Assembly: GCA_021797745.1 (NCBI GenBank)
Contig: JAJZZD010000003.1
Coordinates: 22,032-86,031 of the forward strand
Source of the DNA: Microcaldota archaeon
GTDB taxonomy: Archaea; Micrarchaeota; Micrarchaeia; Micrarchaeales; CABMGC01
Reading direction: 5' to 3'
DNA length: 64,000 bases
The notes below the pieces were generated by a model. The model did not search any database, was not told the DNA's origin, and saw only the letters and a list, made by a program, of their open reading frames with translations. Below are positions 5,012 to 39,536 of this stretch, piece by piece; position 1 is the stretch's first letter, and each line of letters begins with the position of its first letter. The position numbers and the translations under genes were made by a program.

Positions 5012-6622
5012 ATGAGTTCAAATAATGAAAATAAATATGATGAAATAATCAACCTGTCAAAAAACAGGGGCATACTTGAACCCACTAGCGAAGTCTATGA
5101 AGGTTTCGCCGGTTTCTTCGACTACGGCCCTGTCGGCGTAGAACTCAAAAAGAACATAGAAAAAGCATGGTGGCGCTTCTTTGTACAAATGCGCGATGAC
5201 GTAGTGGGAATGGATGGGGCAATAATACTGCATCCAACTGTGTGGAAGGCATCCGGGCACGTTGACAGGTTCAAGGACCAGATTGTCGCGTGCACAAAGA
5301 CGCCTAGCCACAAGTTCAGGGCAGACCACGTGATAGAAGAAGAGCTTGGCATAGCCACCGAGGGCATGTCTAATGACGAGCTGCAGAAGCTCATAACTGA
5401 AAATAAGATAAAATGCCCCGTCTGCGGGAGCCTGCTAGGTGAAGTCTCTGATTTTCGCACCATGTTCGAGACAAGCGTAGGCGCAGAAAGCAGTTTGATT
5501 GCTTACCTGAGGCCAGAAACGGCGCAGGCGATATTCGCGGATTTCCGCTGGGTGAAGCGCACCTCAAGAAAGTCATTGCCATTTGGCATAGCGCAGATAG
5601 GCAAGGCATTCAGGAACGAGATATCACCAAGAAACTTCGTTTTCCGTTCAAGGGAATTCAACCAGATGGAATTGGAATACTTCATACATCCTGACCAGAA
5701 ATTCGAATGCAAATATCTCGGAGACAAGGAACTGGGCAAGAGCGCAAGGTTTCTGGACATGCGCACGCAGCTGAAAAACATGGAGCAGAAAGAAAAGAAA
5801 ACGGGCGATGAAGGAATAAGTATGACATTCGGGGAGGCTTTGGAAAAGAAGGTAGTGGCCTGGAGGGAATTCGATGCAAGCCGTAAAATACTTTCAGAGC
5901 AGTCATCTCCGTGGCATGCCTACTGGCTGTGCAAGACATTGGAATTCTACACTTCAATCGGCATAAATGAAAACAACCTGAGATTCAGGGAGCACGTGCC
6001 CGATGAACTTTCCCATTACTCGAAAGCGACATGGGATTTGGAATACAGGTTCCCGTTCGGCTGGAAAGAGATAGTGGGGATTGCCAACAGGTCCGACTAT
6101 GACTTAAAGCAGCATTCGAAGTTCAGCAACAAGGACATGTCTGTTTACGACGAGGCAAAGAAGCAGAACGTGATGCCTGTCGTAATAGAGCCGTCTTTCG
6201 GATTGGAAAGGGCGATAATGGCCGTGCTGATTGAATCCTATGACAGAAGGGAAGGCGCGGGCAAGGATGCTGGCAAGTCAGCAGGCGATGAAAAAGTAGT
6301 TCTGCATCTTGCGAATTCCATAGCTCCGGTAAAGGTCATTGTTCTTCCGCTGGAGAAGAAGCCAGAACCTGTAAAAATCGCCCACGACCTTTTCGAGAAG
6401 CTGAAGGGCATGTACATGTGCGATTTTGATGAATCTGGCAGCATAGGCAAAAGGTATGCGCGCGCTGACGAGATTGGCGTTCCTGTTGCTATAACTATAG
6501 ACAACGAATCTCTGACAGACCACGCAGCTACGATAAGATACAGGGATACGACAAAGCAGGAGAGAGTCCCGATATCAGATATACCTGACAAAATCTCTCA
6601 AATAATAAACTCCAGTTTGTAA
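5012..6622 (+). CDS. glyS: Glycyl-tRNA synthetase, class II
   Basis: Charges tRNA-Gly with glycine in the cytoplasm. 536 residues of the archaeal/eukaryal dimeric type. Seen in order: the N-terminal substrate motif TSEVYEGFAGFFDYGPVG (about 26-43), a zinc-type CPVCG near 135, class II motif 2 (FRNEISPRNFVFRSREFNQ, near 203-221), motif 3 (PSFGLERAIMAVL, near 394-406), and a C-terminal anticodon-binding domain from SIAPVKVIVLPLEKK onward. Slightly shorter than many homologs because the insertions are compact. The ATG at 5012 fits the conserved N-terminus. The 3' end faces tyrS, with about 73 bases between the stops. Confidence 0.97.
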   Translation: MSSNNENKYDEIINLSKNRGILEPTSEVYEGFAGFFDYGPVGVELKKNIEKAWWRFFVQMRDDVVGMDGAIILHPTVWKASGHVDRFKDQIVACTKTPSHKFRADHVIEEELGIATEGMSNDELQKLITENKIKCPVCGSLLGEVSDFRTMFETSVGAESSLIAYLRPETAQAIFADFRWVKRTSRKSLPFGIAQIGKAFRNEISPRNFVFRSREFNQMELEYFIHPDQKFECKYLGDKELGKSARFLDMRTQLKNMEQKEKKTGDEGISMTFGEALEKKVVAWREFDASRKILSEQSSPWHAYWLCKTLEFYTSIGINENNLRFREHVPDELSHYSKATWDLEYRFPFGWKEIVGIANRSDYDLKQHSKFSNKDMSVYDEAKKQNVMPVVIEPSFGLERAIMAVLIESYDRREGAGKDAGKSAGDEKVVLHLANSIAPVKVIVLPLEKKPEPVKIAHDLFEKLKGMYMCDFDESGSIGKRYARADEIGVPVAITIDNESLTDHAATIRYRDTTKQERVPISDIPDKISQIINSSL

Positions 6623-15663: not shown

Positions 15664-17871
15664 TCATAGTAGTGATATTTTATTTCTTTCACCTCCAATG
15701 ACGTCAAATTTCCGCATGTCTTTCTTTCTATCACCCAGCACAAAAAGAATGTACCTTTTTCCCCTTATCGTATTTTCTACAGCTGCGTTTCCAAAGCTGT
15801 CGGTTGTTCCAGAATAGATTTTCTCACCAACGTAATGAAGCTCTATCCTATTATTCGCTTTCGGCTTGCCATTTTCAGAAATGTTCAAGTAAGTCGTGTA
15901 TTTCTGCAAAGGCGTATCTGCTGCTTCAATATTTTCGTAATTCGACATTGCTTCGTGCCTTTCGATTTCAGGGACTTTTATGAAAACAGAGCCCGCAGGG
16001 CTTTTTCCTTTGCCTGAGCTGCAAACGTAGTTTGCGGCGCAAATCCTATGCCCTAACGATTTTAGCATGTCAGTTACCTTTTCTTTTTCACTCTCATTGA
16101 ACGTCAGGTCATCCGCGGCGTACTTTGCGACATCCGAGCTCTGCCTGAAATAGAGCTTTGTCTGGCATAGCCTGCGTATACTCCTATCTATGTCTGTGAC
16201 GTTGTGCGTGACAAGCAAAAGACCAACCCCCTTTTTCCTGAAATCCTGAATCCTCTGCTTCAAGTCCTCATTTACTGCAAATTCGCTGCTGTCGCGCAGC
16301 GCAAGCTGCGCTTCTTCGATACAAATGAGCAGCCTGAGTTCTGAATCGCCGTTTGTGTCAAAAGAATCGACAAAACCATATACTTTATTGAGTATCAGCG
16401 CATAGAAGAATGGTTTCATCTTGTTGCTCACACTTGACAGGTCGAATACGGCCCCTTTTTCCAAAAGCTCTTTGAAGTTTATGCCTTCGGTTGCTGCAAA
16501 CTCGGGACGCATGAGCATTAGCCGCATGCTCTCCAGCGCAGCCTTTATGTTCTCCCCGTGTTTCGTGTATTCTATGCTTACGTTTGTTTTCTTGGCATGC
16601 TGTGCAACTATCGCATTCTCTATTTCATAATATGCCTCTACTGGGTCAGGTGAACGCGTGTTTGCGTATAGTTTTTGGAAAGCAGACAGCAGCACTTTTT
16701 CAAGGGACTTGGTGTAAGGGCCTGCATCGCACGCGACAGACAGCATTGCGGCGAGGTTCTCGTAGAAACGGTCTGTGCTAATCCCTGAATCGCACGAGAA
16801 GAAATTGATAGGTATTTTGGATTTGTACAAGCTTATCACGTTTATGCCGTGCTTATGCGCGAGCATATTCCATTCATCCGTAGGAGACACGACTGCAATT
16901 TTGCTTCCGCGTTCGATGGCCTGCGAAACGATGTTCATTGCGGCGAACGTCTTGCCAGCTCCAGGCAGGCCCGTTATCAGGCAGCCCAGATTAAGCGTGT
17001 CCGCATCTACGTTCACTGCATCGCGTTCCTTAACGCCAGATTCCAGATATGTCCCTAAAACCACGTCTCCGCCGCGCTGCACAACTGAATTCCCAACGAG
17101 AGATATTCTTTTGACTGATTCTGGAAAAGAAATAAGCAGAGACATGTTGTGCAAGTCCAGCGGCAATGCGTCTTTTATGCCTAGGTTCCTGAACAGCGTT
17201 TCGACATCAGAAGCATCTACGCTGTTTTCCTCCAGCACAAGAGACTTCGATTTTATGTAAGTGTATACTAATTGTGAGTCCCTGCCGCACACCACTACGC
17301 TTGTCCTGTATGCCGCCCCATTTTCCATTAGCGACCTGTTCATGGAGTCAAGAAGCAGAGTCAGCGCCTTCTTCTCATCAGAATCGTTGTATATGTCGTG
17401 CTGCACTGAGCTCAGAGACCCGAACAGGCTGTCTTTCAGGCTTTTTGTTACCCTTACCTGCTTGCCGCTTATCCGCGATTCTATCCTGTTCTTCGTCCTC
17501 TCAACATATGCCTTGTCGGCAGGTACAAACGAAAGGAAAATATAGCAATCCTTGCCTGCGAATAACTTATACACATTGTCGAAAATCCTTTCCCGGTTTG
17601 CATTGAAAACTACGCAATACTTTGGTTTTACTGAATCGGAGCCTAAATCAGCATCTGAAGCTTTGACTAGTGCTGCATTTATGTCCAGCTCAAACCCCAC
17701 TACCGAATCAGCAACAGTATTCAGCTGCTCGCCGGTTTCAGTGGCCAGAAACAGCTCTCCTGACTTTAATGACATCATCAGCATAAACTGGCGGTTGAGC
17801 ATCGATTCTATCAAAAGCCCATAGTCGAGATCGTCCGGAATCGCGATTATCTTGGCAAAATTCATTCCCAA
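15664..17871 (-). CDS. HerA/VirB4-like P-loop ATPase with C-terminal beta domain
   Basis: 735 residues. An N-terminal region of about 290 residues of unknown fold is followed by a RecA-type ATPase core: Walker A GLPGAGKTFAAMN (near 303), Walker B LLICIEEAQLALRD (near 515), and a sensor segment GVGLLLVTHNVTDIDR. The order matches HerA/DUF87 or conjugation-type pumping ATPases. The last 80 residues (from YLNISENGKPKANNRIEL to SFGNAAVENTIRGKRY) read like a carboxypeptidase-regulatory or transthyretin-like beta sandwich, an uncommon add-on. DNA translocation, or threading of a partner through a hexamer, is the family expectation. No nuclease or conjugation gene sits beside it; two toxin-antitoxin pairs do. 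Confidence 0.8.
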   Translation of the reverse strand: MGMNFAKIIAIPDDLDYGLLIESMLNRQFMLMMSLKSGELFLATETGEQLNTVADSVVGFELDINAALVKASDADLGSDSVKPKYCVVFNANRERIFDNVYKLFAGKDCYIFLSFVPADKAYVERTKNRIESRISGKQVRVTKSLKDSLFGSLSSVQHDIYNDSDEKKALTLLLDSMNRSLMENGAAYRTSVVVCGRDSQLVYTYIKSKSLVLEENSVDASDVETLFRNLGIKDALPLDLHNMSLLISFPESVKRISLVGNSVVQRGGDVVLGTYLESGVKERDAVNVDADTLNLGCLITGLPGAGKTFAAMNIVSQAIERGSKIAVVSPTDEWNMLAHKHGINVISLYKSKIPINFFSCDSGISTDRFYENLAAMLSVACDAGPYTKSLEKVLLSAFQKLYANTRSPDPVEAYYEIENAIVAQHAKKTNVSIEYTKHGENIKAALESMRLMLMRPEFAATEGINFKELLEKGAVFDLSSVSNKMKPFFYALILNKVYGFVDSFDTNGDSELRLLICIEEAQLALRDSSEFAVNEDLKQRIQDFRKKGVGLLLVTHNVTDIDRSIRRLCQTKLYFRQSSDVAKYAADDLTFNESEKEKVTDMLKSLGHRICAANYVCSSGKGKSPAGSVFIKVPEIERHEAMSNYENIEAADTPLQKYTTYLNISENGKPKANNRIELHYVGEKIYSGTTDSFGNAAVENTIRGKRYILFVLGDRKKDMRKFDVIGGERNKISLL

Positions 17872-17927: not shown

Positions 17928-18000
17928 TCTCATTATAGAGTTTGCCTCGCTATGCCTTCTTATTTTCACAACTGGCCAATTTGTGCGAGAAAGGAAAAGC

Positions 18001-18055
18001 CTGAAAAGTGCGCGGCGTCGAGAGTGGGGATAAAAATACGGCCGCGCACCATCAG
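18001..18055. ncRNA. Conserved long hairpin, copy 1
   Basis: A stem of CTGA/TCAG (18001-18004 with 18052-18055) and GTGCGCGGC/GCCGCGCAC (18008-18016 with 18041-18049) encloses a 24-base loop containing GTGGGGATAAAAATACG. A second copy at 31218-31269 keeps the loop and has paired changes in the stem. It lies about 250 bases before the Lrp-like gene at 18307 and about 130 bases upstream of the HerA-like gene, so the strand and the gene served are open. The remainder of 17872-18306 holds the two divergent promoters, with a TATA-like box (tatatttaaatat) at about 18271-18285. Confidence 0.45.
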
Positions 18056-18306: not shown

Positions 18307-19644
18307 ATGAGAGGCACAAGGCTGGTTTTGCCGCCAGAAGTTGAGAAAACACTAAATGCCATCAGAAAGGCGCACAAGCATGGCATATCAGTCAACTTAA
18401 TCCGCGGAAATTACTACGTAGCTGAAACCACCACTAAATACGTCAAAGAAACTGGCCGCACTAAATCATTTTACCTGTATTTAGGCAAAATAGAGAGAGA
18501 TGGGAAGTTTGTGCCTGCAAGGCACAGGAAGCCGGAGACAAGCATAGGGTCAGTGGAAGGGCTCGTCAAGAACAAGATAGGAAAGGACCCTTTGGAACAG
18601 CTCATACATCCTGGTGCTGCCGAGCTTAAGATACTGGAAGCCGTAAGCACAGATGCGCGAATGCCAATCCGCGAGATAGCGAAGCGTGCAGGCGTAACGC
18701 CGCAGGTGGCGAAGTACAAGCTCAGGAAGCTGGAAAAACAGTACGGCATAAGGTACACCATAGAAATGGCGTCAAGGCCCCTTGGCTTCTTCAGGTACGC
18801 TATTTTCATTAAATTCCTTAGAGATATGCCTAACATAAAGGATGTCAAAGAGCTTTTAGAAAAAGAGCCAACTATTCAACTTGCCGCCGTAATGAAAGGC
18901 GATTATGACTTATTCATCTACTTATTTGCTGAGAACACCCAGACATTGGAAGACAAGATATATGCTCTGAGGTCGGACAGGGTCTTTGCGCCCTTCAATG
19001 CATACTGGTACGCGAGCTACATAACCGACGCTTACGGGTATATACCGCTCCGCGAGCAGTTCTTTGACCTATTGAAAGATAAAATTTGGGTAAAGAGCCG
19101 TGAACGGCTTAGGAAAACGCCAGAGCAGATTCTGCAGAGAGACTACTTCGTCCTTAAAGAGCTAAATGAAAACGGGAAGGCTGATTTTGCCGAACTTGAC
19201 AGAAAACTTGGCTACGCGTCAGGCGCTTCGGATTACACTTACCATAAACTGCTTGAGCAGAAAATAATAAGGCGCGTAACTATAGTCATGCAGTCCCTTC
19301 CAATAAAATATTTGTTGCTTGCTCTAGGCAGACAGGTAAACATGCAGCTTTTCAACATACGGCGCAAAGAAGAATTGATTTACATAATAGAAGAAACCGG
19401 CTTGCCTACAAACAGGTTTGTCTTGAGCGCAGACATAGGCGCGCCGTACGGCATGATGTCCGTGGCTCCGCTTTTCGATGAAAATGTCACTGACTTTGAA
19501 AACGACTACCGCAACACGTTCAGAGGCACAGAAATACAGACTTTTGTATTGACTGACGTATTCCTTGGCTCTTTCGGATTCAGAAAAATAAGCAGAGTTT
19601 ACACTCCGCAATACAAAATAATCACAGAGGAATTAAAGGGCTGA
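18307..19644 (+). CDS. Lrp/AsnC-type HTH regulator with N-terminal YLGKI domain
   Basis: 445 residues. Residues 1-80 form a small domain (VNLIRGNYYVAETTTKY, then FYLYLGKIERDGKF) resembling the N-terminal segment of some transposases and archaeal regulators. An Lrp-type winged helix follows (DARMPIREIAKRAGVTPQVA, about 116-150), and then a ligand-like region (LAAVMKGDYDLFIYL) and a long C-terminal half without a recognised family. A paralog of the same architecture is at 31593. An AT-rich TATA-like box about 25-30 bases before the ATG implies an almost leaderless mRNA. It is probably a DNA-binding regulator; targets are unknown. Confidence 0.7.
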   Translation: MRGTRLVLPPEVEKTLNAIRKAHKHGISVNLIRGNYYVAETTTKYVKETGRTKSFYLYLGKIERDGKFVPARHRKPETSIGSVEGLVKNKIGKDPLEQLIHPGAAELKILEAVSTDARMPIREIAKRAGVTPQVAKYKLRKLEKQYGIRYTIEMASRPLGFFRYAIFIKFLRDMPNIKDVKELLEKEPTIQLAAVMKGDYDLFIYLFAENTQTLEDKIYALRSDRVFAPFNAYWYASYITDAYGYIPLREQFFDLLKDKIWVKSRERLRKTPEQILQRDYFVLKELNENGKADFAELDRKLGYASGASDYTYHKLLEQKIIRRVTIVMQSLPIKYLLLALGRQVNMQLFNIRRKEELIYIIEETGLPTNRFVLSADIGAPYGMMSVAPLFDENVTDFENDYRNTFRGTEIQTFVLTDVFLGSFGFRKISRVYTPQYKIITEELKG

Positions 19645-30917: not shown

Positions 30918-31196
30918 TCAGAATCGTTTCCTGTAAGTGTAATGGCTTTCGCCAAGAGAGTATTCATCTGCGTATCTGTCGAGAATTGATTTGCTGATCT
31001 CGGGATTTACTGCATTCTTTCCAGACTTCGTTATCACTACAAATCCAAAATCGCCGCTTGTTATCCTGACTTCTTTGACGTTTTCCGCGCTTATGAGCTG
31101 CTGCGCGAATTCCTTCGCGTTAACGTTGTTTTTCGGCTTAAGAAAATAGAACAGACACGCATGCCCTGCGCGCTTTGTTTTATCCGTTTTTCTCAT
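30918..31196 (-). CDS. Small alpha/beta protein, possible ligand/RNA-binding domain
   Basis: 92 residues from the ATG at 31196 (MRKTDKTKRAGHAC); an ATG at 31214 would add six. Pattern beta-alpha-beta-beta-alpha (CLFYFLKPKNNVNAKEFAQQ, AENVKEVRITSGDFGFVVIT) resembles the ferredoxin-like RAM or Lrp ligand domain without its HTH. The exact family is not recognised. The conserved long hairpin (31218-31269) lies 22 bases upstream of the start. Confidence 0.6.
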   Translation of the reverse strand: MRKTDKTKRAGHACLFYFLKPKNNVNAKEFAQQLISAENVKEVRITSGDFGFVVITKSGKNAVNPEISKSILDRYADEYSLGESHYTYRKRF

Positions 31197-31217
31197 TTTC
31201 ACACTCTTCAGCATAAA

Positions 31218-31269
31218 CTGATGGCGCGCAGCGTTTGGTGGGGAACAAAATACGGCCGCGCGTCATCAG
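31218..31269. ncRNA. Conserved long hairpin, copy 2
   Basis: A 15-base arm at 31218-31232 (CTGATGGCGCGCAGC) faces 31255-31269 (GCCGCGCGTCATCAG), with one wobble and one mismatch. The 22-base loop holds GTGGGGAACAAAATACG. Copy 1 at 18001-18055 has the same loop core and a differently composed but paired stem, which suggests selection on structure. It lies between a minus-strand gene and the Lrp-like paralog at 31593, about 320 bases from the latter. The rest of 31270-31592 shows only the regulator's promoter (TATA-like ttatataac at 31565-31573). Confidence 0.45.
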
Positions 31270-31592
31270 CATGAATCAGGTAATGCAAGTAATAGGCGAG
31301 CATTGCGGCGGGACAGAGTGGTTGAGTGTTGGGTGTTGGTAATCTTATGGATGTTTGCACTGGATGGTAGGGAAAAATATAATGCAAACTTATCCCACTC
31401 AATTTCATATTCCCGCCCGTAACTATATTATGAAGTTTGTTTTATTTATAAGCTAGCCAAAAAAACATATGAAATAGGTGTTAGTTTATTCTAATTTGGA
31501 ATTTTGAATGCAAAAAATACACAAGTTTGATTATATGCTATAGCTTATTCATCAGCGCCAAGAGTTATATAACTATTTGGCATAGTATAATT

Positions 31593-32999
31593 ATGAGTTA
31601 TGAAATGCCAGAAGGCGTTAGAGAGGTCGCGGAACGTATAAAGAAGGAGTATCCGTTCAAGGTAAGCATAAAGCGGATAAACGGCAAATATTACATATAT
31701 CACATCTACGCGCTCAAGGGCAAAGAAGATAAGGCAAAAAAGGTTACCGAATACTTAGGTAGAATAACTGAAGAAGGACAGTTCGTTAAGAAACTGGGCG
31801 AGAAGGTAACCGACAACAAGCTCAAGCTTGCAGAGGAAATCATACGTGCATACGGCGGCAAGGTCATAATGCCACACGAACCAGTACCAAAGGAACTTAT
31901 GCCGCAGCAAAATAACCAGCAACAGCTTATTGATGAAAAAGACAAGATAATACTGACTGCGCTGAGCATGAACGCGAGAATCAAATATTCAAAAATAGGC
32001 GCGATGACTGGTTTGCCGGTGCAAACTGTGGCATACAGAATAAAAAGACTGGAAAAAGAATTCAGAATAAAGTATACTGAAGAGTTGGATTTGAACAAAC
32101 TAGGTTTTTCCAACTATCTGATTTTAGGGAAATTTCTTGGAGAGAAGCCAAGTGCAGAAGCGATAAAGAAGGCTGCGGAGAGTGAACCACGTGTGCAATT
32201 AGCAATGACAACAAAGGGAAAATACGATGTTGTTATGTTCTGCGTGGGGGAAAGCACTGATGCAATAAGCTGGGCATTTACAGGTTTACGAGAAAAGGAA
32301 GGGCTCGGCAAATACGAATCGGAATGGTATATAAGCCCGTTAAGAGACGTATATAATTTTGTCCCATTAAGAAGCGCCTTCTTTGATTTGTTAGAAAAGA
32401 GAGTTTGGCATAGAACAAGAGGAAATTCAAAGGCAGGGAAAAATGATTTGAAATATAGGGAATTTGTCTTGTTGAAAGAGCTCAACAAAAATAGCATTGA
32501 AAGTTTCAGCACGATAGATGCGGCATACGGCTTACCAAAGGGAAGCGCGAAGAACGCCTATGAAAGCTTGAGAAGCGAAGAAAGAGAGATTTTGATACGG
32601 CCGACTATAGGAATAGAAGACGACATGATTAAATTCGATGCTATTCTATTGCTTAGCGTATTAAATAGGGATTTGTTTGGCACGACGAGAAATTTACTTA
32701 GGCTGCATATAATAAACGAAAAAGTTGACCGGATAACTAATAAATTTACATACATTGCAGATATGGAAACTCCTGATGGCATATTGTTTATTTCTTCACT
32801 GCTGAAGGAAGGAGATCTTGAAAGGGAGGAAATAGAAATAAACGACCATATTAAAGGCATATCATTTCACTCCCTTATAGTCAGCAGTATTTTAGTTGGC
32901 AAATTCTGTAAGAGGAGATTTGATAATTCATACTCTAAACAATATTTAAATCTGGTAAAAAATAAGCAAGTAGAAAGAAAGGAAGCACTTGAATACTGA
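31593..32999 (+). CDS. Lrp/AsnC-type HTH regulator, paralog of 18307
   Basis: 468 residues from the ATG at 31593, chosen because ttatataac sits about 25 bases upstream (leaderless). The same plan as the 18307 protein: an N-terminal domain (VSIKRINGKYYIYHIYALKG, then VTEYLGRITEEGQFV), a linker with Gln/Pro, and an Lrp winged helix (NARIKYSKIGAMTGLPVQTV, about 128-160). A ligand-like segment follows (QLAMTTKGKYDVVMFCV), then a long C-terminal half. The last 50 residues (from IKGISFHSLIVSSILVG, then CKRRFDNSYSKQYLNL) are repeated twice downstream as isolated fragments. Regulatory role inferred; targets unknown. Confidence 0.72.
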   Translation: MSYEMPEGVREVAERIKKEYPFKVSIKRINGKYYIYHIYALKGKEDKAKKVTEYLGRITEEGQFVKKLGEKVTDNKLKLAEEIIRAYGGKVIMPHEPVPKELMPQQNNQQQLIDEKDKIILTALSMNARIKYSKIGAMTGLPVQTVAYRIKRLEKEFRIKYTEELDLNKLGFSNYLILGKFLGEKPSAEAIKKAAESEPRVQLAMTTKGKYDVVMFCVGESTDAISWAFTGLREKEGLGKYESEWYISPLRDVYNFVPLRSAFFDLLEKRVWHRTRGNSKAGKNDLKYREFVLLKELNKNSIESFSTIDAAYGLPKGSAKNAYESLRSEEREILIRPTIGIEDDMIKFDAILLLSVLNRDLFGTTRNLLRLHIINEKVDRITNKFTYIADMETPDGILFISSLLKEGDLEREEIEINDHIKGISFHSLIVSSILVGKFCKRRFDNSYSKQYLNLVKNKQVERKEALEY

Positions 33000-39394: not shown

Positions 39395-39536
39395 GGGGTT
39401 GTTGCGTAATCAGGCAGCGCGGCTGGCTCCAGATGTTTATAATTGTTTGAGCTAAATGCGATGATGAGGATCTGGAATGGCAAAAATTGAAATATGAAGT
39501 CACCAGCAAGTTTGGGTTCAAATCCCAGCAACCCCA
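39395..39536 (+). tRNA. tRNA-Trp (anticodon CCA) with 69-base intron
   Basis: Exon 1 (39395-39432): acceptor GGGGTTG, D-stem GCG/CGC, anticodon stem GCTGG, CTCCAG. Exon 2 (39502-39536): A, CCAGC, T-arm TTGGG-TTCAAAT-CCCAG, acceptor CAACCCC, discriminator A. The mature molecule is 73 bases. The intron sits after position 37, the classic archaeal site. It contains ATGATGA (39461-39467, box C-like), and ATCTGGA (39470-39476), complementary to TCCAGAT spanning the anticodon and splice junction (39428-39434). No good box D is seen, so a cis-acting methylation guide, as known for haloarchaeal tRNA-Trp, is possible but unproven. Confidence 0.93.

Follow-up and report, generated by a model that had tools for sequence, protein, structure and literature searches.

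Two hairpins in divergent intergenic regions

The window, i.e. the whole 64-kb stretch of DNA analysed here, is part of contig C4 of a genome of 806 kb. The genome belongs to a tiny uncultured archaeon that is placed in Micrarchaeota by its glutamyl-tRNA synthetase (gltX), for which relatives were found in MAGs of this group. The window contains two hairpins, at positions 18001..18055 (copy 1) and 31218..31269 (copy 2), which a preliminary description had noticed upstream of two Lrp-like regulators. Both hairpins are indeed present and are much more stably folded than dinucleotide-shuffled sequences (z-scores of -3.4 on the plus and -4.46 on the minus strand for copy 1, and of -4.2 and -4.72, respectively, for copy 2), each being more stable than every shuffle on either strand. 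On the minus strand, which is the presumed sense strand of both copies, the 5' arm GGUGCGCGGC and the 3' arm GCCGCGCACU of copy 1 enclose the loop CGUAUUUUUAUCCCCACUCUCGAC, and the loop of copy 2 is CGUAUUUUGUUCCCCACC; the second copy therefore has the same loop core, as had been described. Likewise, the two regulators are paralogous AsnC/Lrp-type HTH proteins with about 30% identity.

Regulator 1 (18307..19644, plus strand) comprises an N-terminal region of about 105 residues and an AsnC HTH. It has a TATA-like box near its ATG, and its mRNA is therefore probably leaderless. In case of regulator 2 (31593..32999, plus strand), the TATA box lies immediately upstream of the ATG. The N-terminal region is conserved in the Lrp-like regulators (18307-18640 and 31593-31930 in the window), has as many as 13 homologous matches in a single relative (genome G006), and may resemble the N-termini of some transposases; that of regulator 1 gave no Pfam match, and the regulator as query gave no match against the genome contigs.

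Seven hairpin copies exist genome-wide, five more than had been described before: the two in the window, two on contig C9, and one each on C1, C5 and C6. Copy 2 was recovered by a full-length pattern for which shuffles gave an expectation of 0, and pattern searches also detected both copies on C9. The fifth copy, on C1, came from a scan upstream of regulator paralogs and has a mostly different stem with perfect pairing (CTGGCGCACAG/CTGTGCGCCAG). The sixth and seventh copies, on C5 and C6, were found when leaders were read by eye and were not recovered by our first covariance model, R1; they have another new stem, AACAGGAcAGC/GCTaTCCTGTT, around GAGTGGGGAAAATAC (z -4.7). Four of the copies are nearly identical while their flanks are unalignable, and among all copies the similarity of the stems extends from about 90% identity down to wholly different sequences, with a loop that stays similar. 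The hairpin is real and beyond chance. Each of the six full-length regulator paralogs encoded in the genome has the element in its divergent intergenic region, and no hairpin was seen upstream of the two shorter HTH homologs. Six hairpin copies had no match at E <= 1 in Rfam 15, we found no description of this element in the literature, and the exact loop pattern has four matches in viral contigs. In the window, Rfam 15 covariance models matched tRNAs alone at gathering scores. A tRNA match at 39395-39536 extends over 142 bases on a 71-position model, and it is probably an intron-containing tRNA.

Genes for stand-alone RAM proteins on the opposite strand

On the minus strand, copy 2 is followed after 22 nt by the start codon of a gene for a stand-alone RAM-domain protein of 92 residues (30918..31196), of which relatives were found. 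Between hairpin and regulator lies a conserved promoter-like block, CTTATAAATAAAACAAACTTCATAATATAG (31423..31452, minus strand), that consists of a TATA box, a spacer of about 8 nt and TTCATAATA, and is directed at the hairpin and then at the small ORF; many RAM loci from other genera carry the same block. RAM ORFs of about 92 residues lie on the opposite strand beside five of the seven copies. The hairpin-to-ORF distance is 22-45 nt (copy 2, both C9 copies, C1 and C5), and usually the hairpin is 20-110 nt ahead of a divergent stand-alone RAM gene, the second C9 copy being followed by a 45-residue ORF instead of the RAM gene of about 92 residues. The preliminary description thus was right about the position of the hairpins, which are 250-400 bp upstream of the regulators, but the regulator is probably not the gene that is served, considering the opposite strand, the promoter and the divergent RAM gene, and both strand and target gene probably had been misassigned. 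A location of the hairpin in the 5' untranslated region of the regulators was rejected, as TATA-like boxes near the start codon of each regulator inspected make its presence in regulator mRNAs unlikely, and as the minus-strand promoter lies in between.

The RAM paralogs have a weak Pfam match to AsnC_trans_reg. An AlphaFold model (pLDDT 72) has a stand-alone RAM fold without HTH, and with this model Foldseek gave the stand-alone RAM structure 2djw as best PDB match, along with 2e1a, 2cvi and 2zbc, which are of the same kind, and Lrp/FFRP proteins. In its predicted structure, the protein resembles P. horikoshii DM1, S. tokodaii STS042 and T. thermophilus TTHA0845, with a beta-alpha-beta-beta-alpha-beta fold of about 75 residues that lacks an HTH; it differs from the solved stand-alone RAM structures by its divergence (12-19% identity) and by its frequent head-to-head arrangement with an enlarged Lrp-type regulator.

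At copy 1, 14 of 14 nt at 17953..17966 (minus strand) are identical to the C5/C6 RAM start (E 0.001 in a five-sequence database), and an alignment with the RAM start of copy 2 has AUA in place of AUG. It is suggestive only that this is the remnant of a RAM gene start. As merely this match is left, copy 1 probably is an orphan whose RAM gene decayed. Where a RAM gene is situated at other copies, copy 1 has on its divergent side a gene for a 735-residue HerA/FtsK-like ATPase (15664-17871, minus strand). Divergent RAM operons often start with other tiny ORFs (L112/L113 in G006, L122 in G024, L210 in G053), one of which encodes a C2HC zinc-finger-like protein (..CFICKEM..FLWHIQDCKA); the leader structure overlaps with the region for the N-terminal part of this protein.

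Covariation of the stem and strand of the structure

It had been claimed that the changed stem of copy 2 still closes. Between copies 1 and 2, one pair is fully compensated (U-A to C-G), but another is G-C in one and A.C in the other copy (G.U on the other strand). With a single fully compensated pair, the two copies do not suffice to prove covariation, and the proof needed the C1, C5 and C6 copies as well as other genera. In an alignment of nine sequences with an 11-pair stem, 91.9% of the cells are paired as compared to 86.4% after shuffling (1/500 shuffles as high), 8 double-change cells face 3.0 expected ones (0/500 as high), and the covariation score is 0.333 versus 0.221 (1/500 as high), all computed without regard to the relatedness of the sequences. 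Four stem pairs are altered on both sides, and such compensatory base changes are expected of a cis-acting structured mRNA leader.

One pair position is G-C, G-U or A-U and never broken when read in the sense of the RAM gene, but on the opposite strand it would be A.C in five of nine sequences. Over 13 hairpins, the ratio of G.U to A.C among the wobble-type exceptions on the RAM-sense strand is 12:2 (one-sided binomial p 0.006, with cells that are not independent). In the same sense, the loop begins with a U-tract that is followed by UUCCC(C/U) and more C's. Of 37 promoter-anchored RAM leaders, 15 contain this motif of U-tract and CCC, as compared to 4 after shuffling and 6 on the antisense strand; these leaders had been picked by promoter match, some being added for a strong helix P1 (see below), and the motif was no criterion.

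The loop does not perfectly complement the ribosome-binding sites of RAM genes in the same genome. That it could be antisense to ribosome-binding sites in general is not supported, as the genes of the window have no common GGTGGGGA sites. The start region of an ORF on the plus strand of C9 (GGTGGGGAATAAAATATGG, L068:1501-1522, G000:C9, near 6220-6241) is an almost exact complement of the RAM-sense loop if two G.U pairs are allowed. This ORF has 165 residues with repeats that resemble ribosomal protein L12, and its start region possibly is a trans target of the loop, or the match is due to chance.

Occurrence in other genera

A covariance-model search in related genomes had been suggested, and it detected the hairpin in further genera. 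The four near-identical copies were used for model R1, which had its top match outside of the own genome in G070 (E 2e-4). The hairpin of G070 is located 65 nt ahead of a RAM gene, behind which a short Lrp-type gene lies on the same strand. R2, trained on copies c1-c5, G070 and G050, gave non-training matches in G005 (E 9e-5) and G020 (E 0.09), and R3, for which these two were added to the training set, gave one in G004 (E 0.08), all of them upstream of RAM genes. None of these three was in the training set of the model that found it, and the three hairpins lie about 80-110 nt before independently found RAM genes in the same orientation. With R3, the window copies reach E 3.1e-8 (copy 1) and 3.4e-9 (copy 2). 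In G004, G005 and G020, no Lrp-type regulator was seen alongside the RAM gene; what we take to be an RNA-polymerase-subunit-L-like (RpoL) gene is near the RAM gene in all three, and presumably a DUF99-like gene in G005 and G020.

The position upstream of one gene family on the same strand is therefore conserved in the loci of the own genome, G070, G005, G020 and G004, with two exceptions: a significant copy in G012 (E 3.8e-5) precedes a CTP-synthase-like gene and not a RAM gene, and a copy in G050 lies beside a short Lrp-type regulator where no RAM gene was seen. In most genera, RAM genes are present but not accompanied by a match to these covariance models. R1 matches in G068 and G008 combined loop motif and stem but had unrelated contexts and E-values of 0.1-0.8 and were not retained, and the locus L057 in G025 was likewise dropped due to its unrelated context.

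Of the two possibilities that the preliminary description had offered, a structured RNA is supported by the stem covariation, the G.U bias on one strand and the repeated occurrence next to the same gene in other genera. A protein-bound cruciform is less likely, given the strand bias and a stem sequence that is free to change as long as pairing is kept.

A possible second helix in the presumed leader

Right after the presumed transcription start of the copy 2 locus, a long-range helix P1 can be drawn (31307..31417, minus strand), in which GGCGGGA (31307-31313) pairs with TCCCGCC (31411-31417). P1 has p 0.066 at this locus and 0.016 at the C1, C5 and C6 loci, and the own genome thus provides strong examples (GGCGGGA/TCCCGCC, GATGGTGGGAA/TTCCCACCATC, AGAGGGTGGA/TCCACCCTCT); in many other RAM leaders, P1 helices are of unrelated sequences. 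P1 as a universal second helix was given up: despite several strong cases, only 7 out of the 28 loci anchored by the promoter reached p <= 0.05. The strand test for P1 gave 17:7 in a selected set and 3:4 in a stricter one, and alternative pairings in the leader were noted by eye. Inside P1 (31307-31417 and the matching C9 region), another hairpin was noticed that is weaker and has a different stem around a similar loop (GGTAGGGAAAAATATA, GGGTGGGCACAAAGAATA), and judged from these sequences the leaders may hold tandem elements.

A proposed structured leader of RAM mRNAs and its alternatives

What could be the function of the hairpin? We give a slightly better than even chance to the view that it is part of a structured 5' mRNA leader that controls RAM gene expression, encoded on the minus strand of the window and pointing away from the Lrp-like regulators. 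At the sequence level, this agrees with a stem of some 10 bp that changes in sequence but stays paired, with the U-tract and CCC(C/U)-rich tract of the loop, and with the fixed site before RAM genes in most copies; the promoter block upstream of the hairpin in RAM loci of the own genome, together with the G.U bias, bears on transcription of the minus strand. Transcription would proceed from the promoter block through the hairpin into the RAM gene, and the hairpin would set the amount of RAM protein, most likely at the level of translation. In several loci, a short leader ORF overlaps or abuts the RAM start, which suggests a possible coupling of leader and RAM translation. The pyrimidine loop could serve as recognition surface, either for an RNA-binding protein, possibly the RAM product itself, or for a purine-rich ribosome-binding site such as GGUGGG. 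Copy 1 would be the leftover of such a leader with a RAM gene that probably decayed. As amino acids are ligands of stand-alone RAM proteins, and as these proteins can form hetero-octamers with Lrp proteins (PMC2995911), a feedback between sensor level and leader appears plausible; the physiological role of stand-alone RAM proteins was considered unclear in a review of 2010 (PMC2995911).

Alternatively, the region could be a leader-peptide attenuator, i.e. mainly a short translated ORF (e.g. M.[VT]RGRILFPT..CAP) on which ribosomes melt the hairpin and thereby expose or hide the RAM start. We regard this as unlikely, although the leader does contain ORFs. At copy 2, a putative ORF of 66 codons (MKLSGISLHYIFPYHPVQ..RPYFVPHQTLRAISLC, 31208..31408, minus strand) extends from P1 through the hairpin; at C1, the leader ORF overlaps the next start codon as TGATG. 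Peptides of the type VRGxIL.P..CAP recur in c1-c4, G004 and G005, and differences in the leader ORF frame are mostly synonymous (four, plus one terminal non-synonymous difference, between the G006 paralogs L112 and L113; three, followed by two terminal changes, between C5 and C6). However, the near-identical hairpins of copy 2 and C9-c3 are in different frames of ORFs that start after P1, and the loop lengths of 22, 23, 24, 26, 28 and 29 differ by numbers not divisible by three, so that the 3' arm shifts frame and its pairing is kept independently of the frame. Moreover, CCCCAC shows no variation at third positions within the own genome, and the openness of the ORFs is uninformative because stop codons are rare in all frames of the pyrimidine-rich strand. 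As the frame of the hairpin is not constant while the 3' arm remains paired, we take structure to be the primary constraint, with leader translation as a possible, secondary one; RNA and coding constraints on the leader have been separated in part, not fully.

A DNA operator appears still less probable. Here, the pairing would reflect two half-sites of a symmetric protein, with an inverted repeat that is bound by the Lrp-like regulators or by RAM/Lrp hetero-oligomers and controls the divergent promoters. It is common for Lrp proteins to act at the control regions of their own genes, and they can form hetero-octamers with RAM proteins (PMC2995911), and the element does lie within the divergent intergenic region. 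An Lrp operator should have conserved arm sequences, but the arms change wholly among paralogs while the pairing stays: copies c1-c3 have a common arm sequence despite differing recognition helices of their regulators, and the arms of C1, C5 and C6 are new. The most conserved part is the asymmetric loop, the 12:2 ratio of G.U to A.C is not what an operator would predict, and the hairpins of G004, G005 and G020 lie before RAM genes beside which no such regulator was seen. A separate small non-coding RNA or a mobile palindromic (REP/MITE-like) repeat that is near these genes by chance would fit the compact 50-nt hairpin and the four near-identical copies with unalignable flanks, but is very improbable, as the copies share a single gene context and orientation, in other genera too, and are not dispersed, as stems can be wholly different around a still similar loop, and as no RAYT or transposase was noticed beside them.

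Relation to known systems and significance

The candidate RAM leader shares with riboswitches and protein-binding mRNA leaders, such as those of ribosomal proteins, a covarying stem with a conserved loop, located between the promoter and the start codon in a single family of genes. It differs from them in that the hairpin has no Rfam match, that no conserved multi-helix aptamer core was found, and that the gene behind the leader encodes a stand-alone RAM protein. With ribosome-mediated attenuators, it has in common a short leader ORF and a hairpin before the gene, which overlap or abut the gene in some loci, but the frame through the hairpin is not constant, and there is no run of a single codon. 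As a cis-acting mRNA leader, the candidate would be ordinary in kind, and new as a family without Rfam match. A more far-reaching idea, which we consider possible but rather doubtful, is that it represents an undescribed class of DPANN regulatory RNA, in which a pyrimidine-loop hairpin leader senses a protein, a peptide or the amino-acid state, and thereby sets the level of the stand-alone RAM sensor; if true, amino-acid sensing and the leader RNA would be joined in a feedback loop.

To our knowledge, little is known about gene control in Micrarchaeota. The hairpin adds a candidate RNA family that is absent from Rfam, and a covarying leader that is tied to stand-alone RAM genes would offer a concrete handle on amino-acid-responsive regulation in symbiotic Micrarchaeota.
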